From Halorussus pelagicus (GTDB lineage Archaea > Halobacteriota > Halobacteria > Halobacteriales > Haladaptataceae): 64,000 nucleotides of DNA. Below are positions 368-7,622 of the stretch, one piece after another; the stretch's first letter is position 1; every line of letters starts with the position of its first letter. The notes under the pieces were generated by a model. The model was not told the DNA's origin, searched no databases, and worked only from the letters and a program-made list of their open reading frames with translations. The position numbers and the translations under genes were made by a program. The DNA lies in contig NZ_CP035119.1 in the NCBI RefSeq assembly GCF_004087835.1, positions 1,054,001 through 1,118,000 on the forward strand, in the 5' to 3' direction.

Positions 368-1510
368 ATGGGAGACGACACCACTCCAGTCATCGCTAAG
401 GCCATTCGAACGCCGCAAGGTAAGGAAGACGGCGTCTTCGCTGACACCCGGAGTGAAGACCTCTCGGTACCGCTCGTAGACACCATCCTCGACGAGACGG
501 GGCTGGACGGCGACCACATCGACGACCTGATGTGGGGCTGTGCCCAGCAGCGCGAGGAACAGGACAACAACGTCGCGCGGGTCATCGCGCTCCTCTCGGA
601 GTTGGGCGAGGGCGTGCCCGCGACGACCATCAACCGCTGGTGCGCCTCCTCGATGCAGGCCATCATCAGCGCGAGCGACGCCATCCGAGCGGGCCAGCGC
701 GACGCCATCATCGCGGGCGGCGTCGAGAACATGAGCCGAATCCCGATGAGCCAGGGTTACGGCAACGTCCACCCTCGGATGGCCGAACACTACAACGTCG
801 GCGAACTCTCGATGGGAATGACCGCCGAGAAGGTCGCCGAGGAGTACGGCGTCTCCCGCGAGCAACAGGACGAGTACGCGCTCCGAAGCCAACAGCGCGC
901 CGCCGAGGCCACCGAGTCGGGCCGGTTCGACGACGAAATCGTCCCCATCGAGACCGACGACGGACTGGTCGAGGAAGACGAGGGCATCCGTCCGGACACG
1001 TCGATGGAAGCCCTCTCGGGACTCCCCACGGTGTTCAAGGCCGACGGGTCGGTCACGCCCGGCAACTCCTCGCAGATTTCCGACGGGGCGTCCGCGACGC
1101 TCGTCACCAGCGAGGCCTTCGCCGAGGAACACGGTCTCGACGTACTCGCGTATGTCGGTGACAACAACGTCACGGGCGTGGACCCGACCGTGATGGGCAT
1201 CGGCCCGGTCCCCGCGACCAAGGAACTGCTGGAGCGCACCGGCGAATCCATCGAGGAGTTCGACCTCGTGGAACTCAACGAGGCGTTCGCCAGCCAGACC
1301 GTCTACGCCAAGAACGAACTCGGCGTCCCGGACGAGAAGTTCAACGTCAACGGCGGCGCAATCGCCATCGGCCACCCGCTGGGGGCCTCCGGCGCTCGCC
1401 TCCCCGTGACGCTCATCCACGAGATGCAGAAACAGGACGCGACGAAGGGGCTTGCGACCCTCTGCGTCGGGTTCGGGCAGGGCGCGGCGATGACTTTCGA
1501 GCGCCGATAA
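368..1510 (+). CDS. Thiolase (acetyl-CoA C-acyltransferase)
   Basis: A 380-residue thiolase that would condense or cleave acyl-CoA and acetyl-CoA in the cytoplasm, in beta-oxidation or acetoacetyl-CoA synthesis for isoprenoid lipids or polyhydroxyalkanoate. The nucleophilic Cys92 lies in [10 protein letters not shown], the His336 motif is [10 protein letters not shown] and the second active-site cysteine is Cys366 in [10 protein letters not shown]. The length is normal for the family. A TATA-like ATTTAAG at 338-344 lies about 27 nt upstream of the ATG, which supports this start and a leaderless transcript. Substrate chain length cannot be told from sequence. It stands alone, with an unrelated gene convergent downstream. 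Confidence 0.93.
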
Positions 1511-2741: not shown

Positions 2742-3068
2742 ATGGCTAACACCCGCGTCGTCTTGGCCAAGGGCTTTTCCGTTGCGGTCGTCGTTCTCCT
2801 CGGACTCATCGGCGTCTACGTCCTGCTCGGGAGCGGCGGATTCTCCCGGTCCGGACTGCTGTTGTATCTGCTCACGGTCTCGTTCGCACTGACCGGCGCG
2901 CGAGGCATCTGGACGAATCGGTACCGGATTGGGACCATCGGTGCAGTCGGCATGGCCGCCGTCGCGGTGCTGCAGGGCGCGCTCGTCGTCGGGTTCGCGG
3001 CCCTGCTGGCGGTGGCAGTCGTGTTGGGGTACTCCGGGCGGATGCGCGATCATCTAGATACAGAATAA
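2742..3068 (+). CDS. Small multi-pass membrane protein
   Basis: A 108-residue protein with about four hydrophobic segments separated by short loops and a charged C-terminus. I do not recognise a functional family. It is divergent from the SPFH gene; its TATA-like GTTTATC at about 2711-2717 is 28 nt before the ATG. Base composition is host-like, so the AT-rich islet begins just after its stop codon. Genes of this kind are widespread in haloarchaea without a known role. Confidence 0.7.
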   Translation: MANTRVVLAKGFSVAVVVLLGLIGVYVLLGSGGFSRSGLLLYLLTVSFALTGARGIWTNRYRIGTIGAVGMAAVAVLQGALVVGFAALLAVAVVLGYSGRMRDHLDTE

Positions 3069-3157
3069 TTCATACGGGAATCTATACCTATAACAATTTA
3101 TTATTATATATAAAATAGTTAGAAAATTATTAACTGCTGTCAATTGTTTCTTTTCGT
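3069..3157 (+). promoter_or_regulatory. AT-rich promoter region of the cysteine-rich precursor
   Basis: About 90 nt made almost entirely of A and T, unlike the flanking sequence. A box AATTATTAAC at about 3125-3134 is centred roughly 28 nt before the ATG at 3158, which suits a leaderless transcript. No GGAGG-type site precedes the start. Confidence 0.6.
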
Positions 3158-3841
3158 ATGGCTCAGAAGCCATCAAAAAAGCAGTTGTTGGACAGCATTG
3201 CAGGAGATTCTCGCGGAACTAACACCGGTCGGCGGCGAGTTCTTCAGTCTGGAGCCTTCGCAACAATTGCGAGCGTCATTGGGCTCGGAAGTATTGGCTC
3301 AGCTTCAGCTTCGAGTAGTAGCGACGACTTTGAGGTAGTTGCGAAGACCGCCAACCCGAAGCGACTAAACGATGCGACACTTCTCCTCGAAGAACTTGCG
3401 AACAAAGACTTAATTTCGAGTGCCAACATTTCCGCGTTCTCGTTCGCTCCTTTGGGGACGAACGATAGCGGAAGTGCCATTCTTAAGTATGGGGACCGCG
3501 TAGTTCACACATTTGTCCTCCGCTCAGATGGAACCAAGCTCACGGTCAATCTTCCTGAAGACGGAGATCCGTATGCGATTTACGCACCGGATGGTTCTGG
3601 TACCAGCACTCGCGTCCGCTTCGACCAAATCAAGGGGACCGTTGAGACGACCAAAATGGAGTACACCCAAGAGGTTTCCACCAACCAAATTGCAGGAGCC
3701 GAATGTCCATCTACCTGCGGGGGAACCACCTGTTCTCCTGCAGGAAACTGCTGGCTAGACAAGCGTGAGTGTGTTGAAACATGCCGTTCCGACGGCGCCG
3801 GTGGCTACTACTGTCACGATAGCTGTAGCTGCGGTTGTTAG
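3158..3841 (+). CDS. Tat-exported precursor with cysteine-rich C-terminal peptide (halocin-like candidate)
   Basis: A 227-residue precursor. Residues 1-52 form a twin-arginine signal (R25-R27 in TGRRRVLQSGA, hydrophobic core 33-48, likely cleavage after ASA). Residues 53-180 form a soluble domain without a single cysteine. Residues 183-227 contain ten cysteines (183, 187, 192, 198, 205, 209, 219, 223, 225, 227) and end in CHDSCSCGC. Known family logic: halocin C8 is made as a Tat-dependent preprotein whose N-terminal part confers immunity and whose cysteine-rich C-terminal part is the antimicrobial. The layout here matches; the sequence is not obviously homologous. A convergent ABC exporter lies 30 nt away. 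Base composition is much more AT-rich than the host, suggesting transfer. It could instead be a structural or metal-binding secreted protein. Confidence 0.6.
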   Translation: MAQKPSKKQLLDSIAGDSRGTNTGRRRVLQSGAFATIASVIGLGSIGSASASSSSDDFEVVAKTANPKRLNDATLLLEELANKDLISSANISAFSFAPLGTNDSGSAILKYGDRVVHTFVLRSDGTKLTVNLPEDGDPYAIYAPDGSGTSTRVRFDQIKGTVETTKMEYTQEVSTNQIAGAECPSTCGGTTCSPAGNCWLDKRECVETCRSDGAGGYYCHDSCSCGC

Positions 3842-3871
3842 AACAGATTCAAGAAGATCATTACGTATATT

Positions 3872-4675
3872 TTATACGTCCGTTCTGGCGAACCACCAGT
3901 ATCCTAAGGGTATCGGGAGAACTGCCCATGTGAGCAGAATTAGCAGCATCGTCGGCGTCGCTAAAAGTGACCCCGTCACAGTCTCAGCGTAGATCGCTTG
4001 ACTCGGAGTGACGGCTTGACTGTACGCACCGAACGGACTCAGCGTCCCAAGGAAATGTGTAAGCGTCTCTGCAGTGGTCGGCTTCCCGAGGCGTGTCTCA
4101 TCCGATCCAGCTACTATCTTGACTATTTGTGGCCAAATTGATGATACAACGTAAAAAACGAGTGCCGCTGTGATGGCACGCAACCGTGTCGAACAAATGG
4201 CCGAGATTGTTGTCCCAAATGAATTATATACTATACATAACAACAGTGTGAAACCAGCAGTTTTCCAGAACGAGCTGCGAGTCAAGTCTATTGAGAGAAA
4301 TCCAAGAGTCACTCCGGCAAGCGCAAACCCGGCGACTACTGCAATCGTGACTACCACTAACCGAGACAAGAGCGTCCCAACGAACACGTCTGTCTTTGTT
4401 ATCGGCGTTCCAAAGAGAAGTCTTAGTCGTCCCGACTCCCGGTCAGCGGCGATGGTCACTGCTGAAGTCAATAAAGCACCGAGTGGAAGTACCGTTCCGA
4501 CGACAAGCCACATGGAAAAGACGAGGAAATCGGTGGTTAATGAACCATTCGACAGTGCAAAGCCGACGAGTATGCTACCGAGGGTAGTTCCGATTGACAG
4601 ACCGACAAGGATTTTCCCGAGGAGGGTTCGACGGACAATATATAAATCATGACAAAAAGTGCGTACGGTAGTCAT
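3872..4675 (-). CDS. ABC-2 type transporter permease
   Basis: A 267-residue integral membrane protein with about six hydrophobic segments and the ABC-2 layout of the NatB/YhaP kind, including the cytoplasmic ADRESGRLRLLFGTPITK loop after the second membrane span. It would form the channel for the ATPase encoded just upstream, whose stop overlaps its start by 4 nt. The gene is AT-rich like the cysteine-rich precursor it faces. I infer export of, or self-protection from, that peptide; sequence alone does not show the substrate. Confidence 0.85.
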   Translation of the reverse strand: MTTVRTFCHDLYIVRRTLLGKILVGLSIGTTLGSILVGFALSNGSLTTDFLVFSMWLVVGTVLPLGALLTSAVTIAADRESGRLRLLFGTPITKTDVFVGTLLSRLVVVTIAVVAGFALAGVTLGFLSIDLTRSSFWKTAGFTLLLCIVYNSFGTTISAICSTRLRAITAALVFYVVSSIWPQIVKIVAGSDETRLGKPTTAETLTHFLGTLSPFGAYSQAVTPSQAIYAETVTGSLLATPTMLLILLTWAVLPIPLGYWWFARTDV

Positions 4676-5649
4676 CTGGCGTTCCCCTCCGCGGCGCTTG
4701 CTACGTTTTCGTCCGTTCGTGACTCAGGTCTATCACGCTCAACTGTCGCGTCGAATACGTCCTCTAGTGCAGTCCTATTTACCTCAAAGTCCCGGACCGA
4801 ACAGTAACGGTTGACGACTTCCACCACGTCGGCTTTTACAGCAGGGGTCTCACAGTCTACCGCTAAGCGTTGTCCATCTGCGCAGATTCCTGCGACGGAG
4901 TCTTTCGTTTCTAATCGGGTGAACAGTTCCTTGTCCGGTGAATCCTGAATAAACAACTGAATCCGCTCTACTTTGTTTTCTCGATCTGCCAATTGGTCTA
5001 CCTCAGCTACTGAGAGAAGGCGACCGTCGTTGACGATCCCGACACGGTCACAGACTTTCTCAACCTCGTCAAGTCGATGGCTAGAGAAGAATACGGTCGT
5101 TCCATTGTCGGCCCGTTCCCGGACGAGTTCTCGGACGAGTGCAATTCCCTCTGGATCCAATCCCGAAGTGGGCTCATCAAGAATCAGGAGATCTGGCTCG
5201 CCAGCAAGTGCCGCTGCCAAGACGAGTCGTTGCATCATTCCCTTAGAATAGTTCCCCGCTGGCCGGTCGAACGCCTCACTGTCGAGGCCCACGGTCTCAC
5301 GTAGGTGCTCAAGGTCGTCCGTTGTATCCTTCAGACGTAGGACTGCTCGAAGATTTTCTCGTCCACTCATTTCCTCGTACACGCCATAATTCTCTGGTAG
5401 AATTCCTACATGACTACGGACAGACCGCGGGTTAGATGCAACATCAGTGCCAAATACGAGTACCCGACCTTCACTCGGAGTTGTCAGTCCGAGGACAAGA
5501 TCAATAATCGTGGATTTCCCCGCGCCGTTCGGACCGAGGAGACCAAACACTTCACCCCGCTGAACTGTAAAGTTGATATTCTCTATAGCGGTCAACGAAC
5601 CAAAGTGCTTCGTCAACGATTCCGTCTCGATAGCCTTCGATTTGTTCAC
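4672..5649 (-). CDS. ABC transporter ATP-binding protein (CcmA/NatA type)
   Basis: A 325-residue ATPase with Walker A GPNGAGKST, signature YSKGMMQRL, Walker B LLILDEPTSGLD and the switch histidine in FFSSHRLDE. The C-terminal 100 residues are the usual extension of drug and peptide exporters. I start it at GTG 5649 rather than ATG 5694, because a TATA-like box (5671-5680, minus strand) sits about 26 nt upstream of the GTG and inside the longer version. It is translationally coupled to the permease. It is a paralogue of the ATPase at 9874-10800, but its gene is markedly more AT-rich. Confidence 0.88.
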   Translation of the reverse strand: MNKSKAIETESLTKHFGSLTAIENINFTVQRGEVFGLLGPNGAGKSTIIDLVLGLTTPSEGRVLVFGTDVASNPRSVRSHVGILPENYGVYEEMSGRENLRAVLRLKDTTDDLEHLRETVGLDSEAFDRPAGNYSKGMMQRLVLAAALAGEPDLLILDEPTSGLDPEGIALVRELVRERADNGTTVFFSSHRLDEVEKVCDRVGIVNDGRLLSVAEVDQLADRENKVERIQLFIQDSPDKELFTRLETKDSVAGICADGQRLAVDCETPAVKADVVEVVNRYCSVRDFEVNRTALEDVFDATVERDRPESRTDENVASAAEGNAR

Positions 5650-5670
5650 AATCCAATCTCTTCCCACTGC

Positions 5671-5680
5671 GATATAAATT
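5671..5680 (-). promoter_or_regulatory. TATA-like box of the convergent ABC operon
   Basis: On the minus strand this reads AATTTATATC. Its centre is about 26 nt upstream of GTG 5649, the usual distance for a haloarchaeal leaderless transcript. This spacing decides the start of the ATPase gene. Confidence 0.55.
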
Positions 5681-5744
5681 TGTCTAATATACATATAATT
5701 TTTACCCGCAGTAGTCTACATACCCAACAACGTGGATCCTCCTT

Positions 5745-7622
5745 TTACAACTGCCGCTCGATGGTCTCGGCCGTCTTCTCGCCCACGCCCTCCACCGCTT
5801 GTAACCCCGCGACCGACGCCTCTCGAATTCCCTCGACGCTCCCGAACCGCCGAAGCAAATTCTGTCGGGTCTTCGGGCCGATGCCGGGCACGTTGTCAAG
5901 TTCGGTCGATACGTCGTCGCGCAGGGTCTTGTGGTATTGGACCGCGAAGCGGTGGGCCTCGTCGCGGACGCGCTGGAGGACGTGGAGGTGGTCGGCGTCG
6001 CTCGGCCAGTCGTAGGTCCCGCTTGGCGTGACCACGACTTCCTCGTCCTTGGCGAGCGCGACTGCGGGCACGTCCCAGTCGGCGTCCGCGAGGGCCTCGC
6101 GGGCCGCGCCGAGTTGCCCCTCGCCGCCGTCGATGAGCAGGAGGTCAGGGTCCGGTCGGTCGTCGCGCGCGTGCCCGTCGGCACGTTTCGCCTCGACGGC
6201 GCGGTCTGCTCGCCAGCGTACGAGGTCGTACATGTTCGCGTAGTCGTCGTTCGTATCGGCCAATTTCTTCCGGCGGTAGCCCGACTTGTCGGCGGCACCA
6301 TCTTCGAAGGCAACGTCGCTTCCGACGGCGTGCTTGCCCTGTGCGTGGCTCACGTCGAAGCCCTCGATGCGCCGGGGCACCCTGTCGAGGTCCAGCGCGT
6401 CGCGGAGCGCGGCGAGGGCGTCGGGTTCGCTCGCGCCCCGCCGGGCGTTCTTGAGCGCGAGGTCCACGAGCGTCGCCTCTCGGCCAGCGCCCGGCACGCG
6501 CGCGGCGACGCCCTCGTTTTCGAGCCAGCCCAGGACTTCCCGGTCGTCCGGGCGGTCCGAGAACAGGAGTGCGTCGGGCAGGTCGCGTTCGGTATAATAC
6601 TGCGTGACGAACGCCGAGATGACCGCCCCGGCGCGGGTGTCGGCGGCCGCGTCGTCGGCGTCGCCCTCCGGAATCGTCACGGCGTGGCGCTCGCGGTCCA
6701 CGAGTTGTCCGGACTCGCTGTGGAGGTGCGCGACGGTCGCCGAGTCGCCTTCGAGTGCGACCCCCAGCACGTCCACGGCGCGCTCGTCGCTCGGGTCGGC
6801 GACCGCCTCGCCCGCGCCGCCGTGGAACCCCTCGACGGCGTCGAGTTTGTCCCGGAGGTTGGCCGCCCGTTCGAACTCCCGACTGGCGGCGGCCTCCTCC
6901 ATCTGCCTGCGGAGCGGGTCCGCGAGGACGCCGGTCTCGCCCTCGAAAAAGCGGACGACCGACTCCACGTCGGCCACGTAGGACTCGCGGTCGATTTCGT
7001 CGGTGCAGGGCGCGGTACAGAGACCGATGTCGTAGTCGAGGCAGGGCCGGTCGCGGTTGCCGTACTTGTGGTCCGAACAGCCACGGACGCCGTAGGTCTC
7101 CCTGAGCGCTTTGACGACGACTTCGACCTGCGTCTTCCGCGTGAAGGGACCGAACACGCGCGGGGCGGAGACGGGAGGGCCGCCGCCGGACGCGCCCCCG
7201 CCACCTCCGGCCGCACTCGCGCCGCCGTCGCCTCGGACCCCGCCGGTCCGCCGGGCGCGCGCCTCGGGGTCCGGGTCGCGGGTAATTTCGATGCGTGGGA
7301 ACTCGTGGTCGGTGAGTTGCACGAGGGGGTAGGACTTGTCGTCTTTCAGGCGGACGTTGTATCGCGGCTGAAACCGCTTGATGAGGTTGGCCTCCAGCAG
7401 GAGCGCTTGGGTCTCGGTGTCCGTGACCGAGTAGTCGATGCTGTCGGCGCGCTGGATCATCCGGCGGATGCGCTCGCTTCGAGGGTCTACGTACGACCGC
7501 ACGCGGTCCCGGATGTCCACGGCCTTGCCGACGTAGAGGACCGTCTCGTCGTCCTGAAACTGATACACGCCGGGCTGACGTGGTAACTCCCCGGCGCGCT
7601 CTCGTACCGCGTCCCCGTCCAT
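5745..7622 (-). CDS. uvrC: UvrABC excinuclease subunit C
   Basis: A 625-residue dual endonuclease of nucleotide excision repair that cuts on both sides of a lesion presented by UvrB. The order is GIY-YIG nuclease (about 15-90, PGVYQF and LYVGKA), a cysteine cluster ([16 protein letters not shown], then CTAPC), the UVR motif ([12 protein letters not shown]), the RNase H-like second nuclease (GFDVSHAQG) and C-terminal helix-hairpin-helix repeats. A Gly/Ala-rich insertion at roughly residues 125-155 separates the first nuclease from the cysteine region and is longer than usual. Haloarchaeal UvrABC is of bacterial origin. uvrA and uvrB are not in the window. Confidence 0.96.

Follow-up and report, generated by a model that had tools for sequence, protein, structure and literature searches.

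The window analysed here is a 64,000-nucleotide stretch of the Halorussus pelagicus genome (NZ_CP035119.1, positions 1,054,001 to 1,118,000). Near its start, a gene for a predicted secreted cysteine-rich precursor and a convergent ABC-2 transporter gene pair occupy an AT-rich island between a small membrane protein gene and uvrC. The features are:

2742-3068: small membrane protein gene, one flank of the island
3069-5744, no strand: AT-rich island between the small membrane protein gene and uvrC (from GC content and comparison with congeners)
3103-3114, plus strand: AT-rich, TATA-box-like stretch about 45-55 bases 5' of the ATG (from sequence; possible promoter element)
3158-3841, plus strand: precursor gene, 227 amino acids, ATG start (from the open reading frame and homologues)
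3158-3313, plus strand: twin-arginine signal region, residues 1-52 (end approximate), with GRRRVLQ at residues 24-30 (from sequence and family alignment)
3314-3703, plus strand: cysteine-free prodomain, residues 53-182 (from family alignment)
3674-3682, plus strand: candidate processing region, VST, residues 173-175 (from motif enrichment; cleavage predicted)
3704-3838, plus strand: ten-cysteine tail, residues 183-227, predicted mature peptide core (from sequence)
3872-4675, minus strand: ABC-2 type permease, convergent with the precursor gene (Pfam accession PF12679, E 1.7e-26)
4672-5694, minus strand: DrrA-like ABC transporter ATPase, overlapping the permease start (Pfam accession PF00005, E 1.8e-32)
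5745-7622: uvrC, the other flank of the island

In the signal region of the precursor, GRRRVLQ is followed by a hydrophobic stretch and an ASAS-type end. The initial annotation had proposed a Tat signal from the RRR motif and hydrophobic core, and both are present; R25 is invariant and R26 more than 90% conserved in an alignment of 67 family members. Its observation on the cysteines also holds and proves to be a family trait: all ten lie within the last 45 residues, from residue 183 (base 3704) onward, with none in the first 182. By simple combinatorics, ten cysteines placed at random in 227 residues would all fall in the last 45 with a probability of about 4e-8. The three-part architecture is not a chance property of one open reading frame, since the same plan recurs in 67 further members. 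No model in Pfam, NCBIfam or PHROGs matches the window protein, and an AlphaFold prediction made without an alignment is too poor for use (pLDDT 38).

The AT-rich composition noted at the outset is that of the whole island, which has a GC content of 0.503 between flanks of 0.645 and 0.698. In most congeners that keep them together, the small membrane protein gene and uvrC abut (gap of about 3-20 bases), so the island is an insertion. Such an insertion is in keeping with an accessory trait that is mobile. In one congener (G014), the slot beside uvrC holds several short repeated open reading frames (L225 13679-14418, plus strand; DQTEDxSAETxPVAPGTS...). These resemble RiPP precursors and may mark the slot as a hotspot for cassettes that encode peptides.

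Sequence comparison places the window gene in a large haloarchaeal family of predicted secreted cysteine-rich precursors that has yet to be named. Searches with the single protein found no relatives in genome contigs or the plasmid collection, and a search with an alignment of a tight subfamily found none in genome contigs or viral contigs. Genomes of the same taxonomic family gave only weak matches, several of which share the plan. A profile built from six sequences gave many strong matches across the class Halobacteria, and the profile search identified at least 68 distinct precursors in this class, five of them in the H. pelagicus genome. Across a sample of 335 genomes of the phylum, matches at E 1e-10 or better were confined to the same order. 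That sample added the fifth H. pelagicus paralogue (six cysteines in the tail), which is the 68th member and stands outside the alignment of 67 distinct members (60 neighbourhoods plus one earlier locus, window protein included).

In every member a Tat signal is followed by a prodomain of about 130 residues, which is moderately conserved, and then by a hypervariable cysteine-rich tail. The only invariant positions in the alignment are the signal arginine and a few cysteines. Other family members match the TAT models of Pfam and NCBIfam, and neither database has a family match for any member beyond its signal. Two named relatives reside on Halorussus plasmids and are annotated as hypothetical proteins. 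A second member, whose tail has 12 cysteines, is encoded some 5 kb upstream of the window gene, about 2 kb before the window start (G000:C1 1051388-1052029; L043 5989-6633). DUF7776, a candidate domain assignment, was rejected: it matched one relative weakly, and its true H. pelagicus member is an unrelated 380-residue reading frame. To our knowledge, few archaeal antimicrobial peptides are known at the sequence level. Some members of this family may already appear as candidates in the survey of archaeal peptide toxins that Makarova and co-workers published in mBio in 2019.

We defined the tail as the stretch from the first cysteine to the C-terminal end, which makes a cysteine-free prodomain true by construction across members. 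Tails have a median length of 48 residues (range 23-85, 67 members). All 67 contain an even number of cysteines (4, 6, 8, 10, 12, 14, 16, 20 or 22), compared with 111 even and 82 odd counts among neighbouring proteins with 4-22 cysteines (p 8e-14, a value that overstates independence as the family members are related). Variation among even values only points to cysteines being gained and lost two at a time, as disulphides. Within the 14 amino acids preceding the first cysteine, 21 of 67 members carry a [VIL][STGD]T motif, which occurs in 4.6% of other prodomain windows; it marks a possible processing region.

The prodomain can be aligned across members whose tails vary greatly in length and in how the cysteines are spaced. 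The two orthologues on Halorussus plasmids have almost the same tail and a prodomain that has drifted more. Together, variable tails on an alignable prodomain and the retention of the tail in these orthologues point to the tail as the selected product. We do not claim accelerated evolution, as tails in close pairs are not evolving faster than prodomains overall.

The window gene therefore probably encodes the precursor of a secreted disulphide-rich peptide, most likely an archaeocin and possibly a pheromone. We favour, at a probability of about 0.55, a preproprotein that is exported by the Tat pathway, releases its tail as a disulphide-rich archaeocin and is accompanied by ABC transporter-mediated protection. 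An extracellular or surface protease would separate the tail from the prodomain close to EVSTNQ; once free, the tail (about 45-55 residues) would fold with all cysteines paired (five disulphides in the window protein). The free peptide would most likely inhibit other haloarchaea, the prodomain would keep it inactive or aid its folding, and the adjoining ABC-2 transporter would most likely clear the peptide from the producer's membrane and so protect the cell. The archaeocin reading draws support from recurrent neighbours typical of secreted-peptide systems (ABC-2 transporters, HExxH proteins and prenyl-synthase-like proteins); the tails are acidic rather than cationic, which counts against it. 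It is further supported by HalC8 and HalH4, both of which become active once a C-terminal fragment is released (PMC12893001).

We clustered all genes of the family neighbourhoods and took recurrent direct neighbours. An ABC-2 pair lies directly beside the precursor at five loci (the window, L055, L059, L062 and L068), three of them from one genome (G149). At L055 and L059 the arrangement is operon-like, with gaps of 15-16 bp. The ATPase in the window matches drrA and lantibiotic-protection models, in both cases below their cut-offs. An ATPase and permease pair beside a peptide precursor, the arrangement of LanFEG-like self-protection, is found here, but not exclusively. No precursor lies within about 5 kb of the closest permease orthologue (59% identity, G297, L152), and the next-closest orthologues mostly lack a nearby precursor; the transporter is thus not a strict partner, and the proposed immunity role is weakened.

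In halocin C8 the N-terminal part is reported to give self-immunity, and the C-terminal part is released and inhibits haloarchaea. The window precursor could likewise act alone, its prodomain protecting the producer, with the ABC transporter an unrelated neighbour that serves drug efflux or membrane repair. We regard this as the likeliest of the alternatives, somewhat short of an even chance. The precursor gene and the ABC pair are convergent and share no operon, the G297 orthologue is an orphan, and the ABC pair is absent from most family loci. Against these points, precursor and ABC genes lie inside one AT-rich insertion, and the adjacency at five loci is about ten times the expectation (Poisson probability about 7e-5, on a rough background). 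We hold the transporter-precursor link with moderate confidence.

Three other clusters recur beside the family. A membrane and Zn-ribbon protein (c3) is a direct neighbour at six loci (L048, L058, L060, L061, L065 and L076); it is present in 32 of 32 genomes tested, with two to three copies in most, and because it is so common its adjacency is weak evidence. Lipoprotein-like proteins (c17) adjoin members at three loci (L072, L086 and L097). In two of the three they carry HExxH and are predicted metalloproteases (L086 4775-6085 and L097 4635-5843, both minus strand), possibly with a role in maturation.

The sole clearly specific partner is a prenyl-synthase-like protein (c4), found beside the precursor at seven loci (L052, L069, L081, L087, L091, L092 and L094). 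The c4 profile matches a nonaprenyl diphosphate synthase in the PDB (E 1.1e-6). Its invariant residues are D109, D110, D113, Q218 and D222; it retains the first Asp motif (DDxxD), the Gln upstream of the second motif and that motif's first Asp. We identified 12 occurrences in 391 genomes, seven of them beside precursors of the cysteine-rich family; of the five weaker homologues, three lie beside other peptides ending in or next to Trp, and two beside none visible. Within the family, a terminal or penultimate Trp is found in all nine c4-adjacent precursors (seven loci), compared with 3 of 58 elsewhere (test on the last two residues, p 5e-9); one c4-adjacent tail has a Leu after its Trp and the rest end in Trp. 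Characterised trans-IDS-like peptide prenyltransferases all modify Trp (PMC13290415). In its polyprenyl-synthase kinship, its DDxxD, the Gln that precedes the second Asp motif and the near-terminal Trp of the putative substrate, c4 agrees with ComQ-type enzymes, and a matching activity is predicted. On these sequence features, c4 beside Trp-ending tails is a candidate archaeal counterpart of ComQ/ComX peptide prenylation. The pairing suggests that the family includes matured peptides, and the Trp subclass offers a testable case of predicted peptide prenylation, a modification not reported in archaea in the literature searched.

Other peptides ending in or next to Trp lie near c4 homologues. 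Two short homologous open reading frames (L173 around 1351-1452, plus strand; L174 2383-2496, minus strand) end in ...RDEEYAKLAPW and ...RDEEYARLGVW and are convergent with c4 homologues; they may encode small Trp-modified peptides unrelated to the cysteine-rich family. At L227, a Tat precursor (4051-4791, minus strand) with a hydrophobic Gly-rich C-terminal part ending in NNSWI adjoins a c4 homologue at 4914-5774.

The restriction of c4 to Trp-ending tails, and the Trp specificity of characterised enzymes, would also suit a pheromone or other cell-cell signal, with the tails as signal specificities and one subclass prenylated on Trp like ComX. We consider such a role unlikely for the released peptide. 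The window member has no c4 enzyme at its locus and does not end in Trp, the clustered neighbourhoods show no receptor kinase or dedicated regulator that recurs alongside the family, and an ABC-2 pair with a multi-disulphide tail is at least equally typical of bacteriocins. The window gene and the Trp subclass could belong to a modular secreted-peptide superfamily that spans the haloarchaeal class and joins one Tat prodomain to many disulphide-rich tails and interchangeable partner sets, ComQ-like Trp prenylation included. The window gene would then be its ABC-linked form, a picture to which we give nearly even odds.

A still less probable reading is that the tail is never released and serves, joined to the prodomain, in metal binding (as a metallothionein-like domain) or in a structural role, for example at the cell surface. 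Some tails (such as those of L042 and L066) pack 20-22 cysteines, many of them in CxC and CC pairs, into fewer than 60 residues, and metal sites, too, often use even numbers of cysteines. Set against this, cysteine number and spacing shift in steps of two with no common metal motif, His is rare (1.7%), and no metal or S-layer gene recurs beside family loci in the clustered neighbourhoods.

True HalC8 and its relatives occur in haloarchaeal genomes of the same sample. The mature HalC8 sequence used as query is confirmed by a 100% match in one genome and by TIGR04449 (halocin_C8_dom), which recognises true HalC8 at E 1.1e-16. That the window protein is a divergent halocin C8 family member with a prodomain homologous to HalI is very improbable: the order of parts and the ten cysteines agree with HalC8 and a sub-threshold prodomain-HalI alignment is co-linear, but TIGR04449 matches neither the window protein at E 1 nor any of the 67 aligned members, profile comparison finds a resemblance to HalI through the signal peptide only (hhalign probability 1.3%, E 0.04 without it), and the H. 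pelagicus genome encodes two separate true HalC8-domain proteins (G000:C1 1557189 and 2303410; L114 and L238).

The term 'halocin-like' in the initial annotation is thus apt for the architecture and not supported as a family assignment. A secreted, Tat-dependent, cysteine-rich preprotein is well supported and the halocin link is one of analogy; the initial annotation had overlooked the neighbouring ABC transporter, the insertion itself and how large the family is. The family is searchable, with many members and several per genome, and yields predictions of a cut site, paired cysteines and candidate protection genes.

The window protein may work like halocin C8 (HalC8/HalI), with which it shares a Tat signal, an N-terminal prodomain, a ten-cysteine C-terminal peptide and an origin in Halobacteria. 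Its tail is shorter (45 compared with 76 residues) and less hydrophobic and has another cysteine pattern, and no sequence homology to HalC8/HalI was found in prodomain or tail. Conotoxin-type precursor superfamilies also join a conserved signal and pro region to a variable disulphide-rich mature peptide, an evolutionary analogy only, as organisms and sequences are unrelated to the haloarchaeal family. ComQ/ComX, PalQ and ChrPC resemble the c4 subclass alone, in a DDxxD enzyme beside a Trp-ending precursor and in a second Asp motif that is reduced and preceded by an invariant Gln; unlike that of ComQ, the c4 substrate would be a Tat-exported cysteine-rich haloarchaeal tail, and the system is absent from the window locus. 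HFX_0892, which is activated by halolysin, acts through N-terminal helices, and the text of the paper does not mention cysteines (PMC12893001). Together with halocin H4 it provides a further parallel to the proposed archaeocin, as both are likewise secreted haloarchaeal precursors activated by extracellular proteolysis (PMC12893001).
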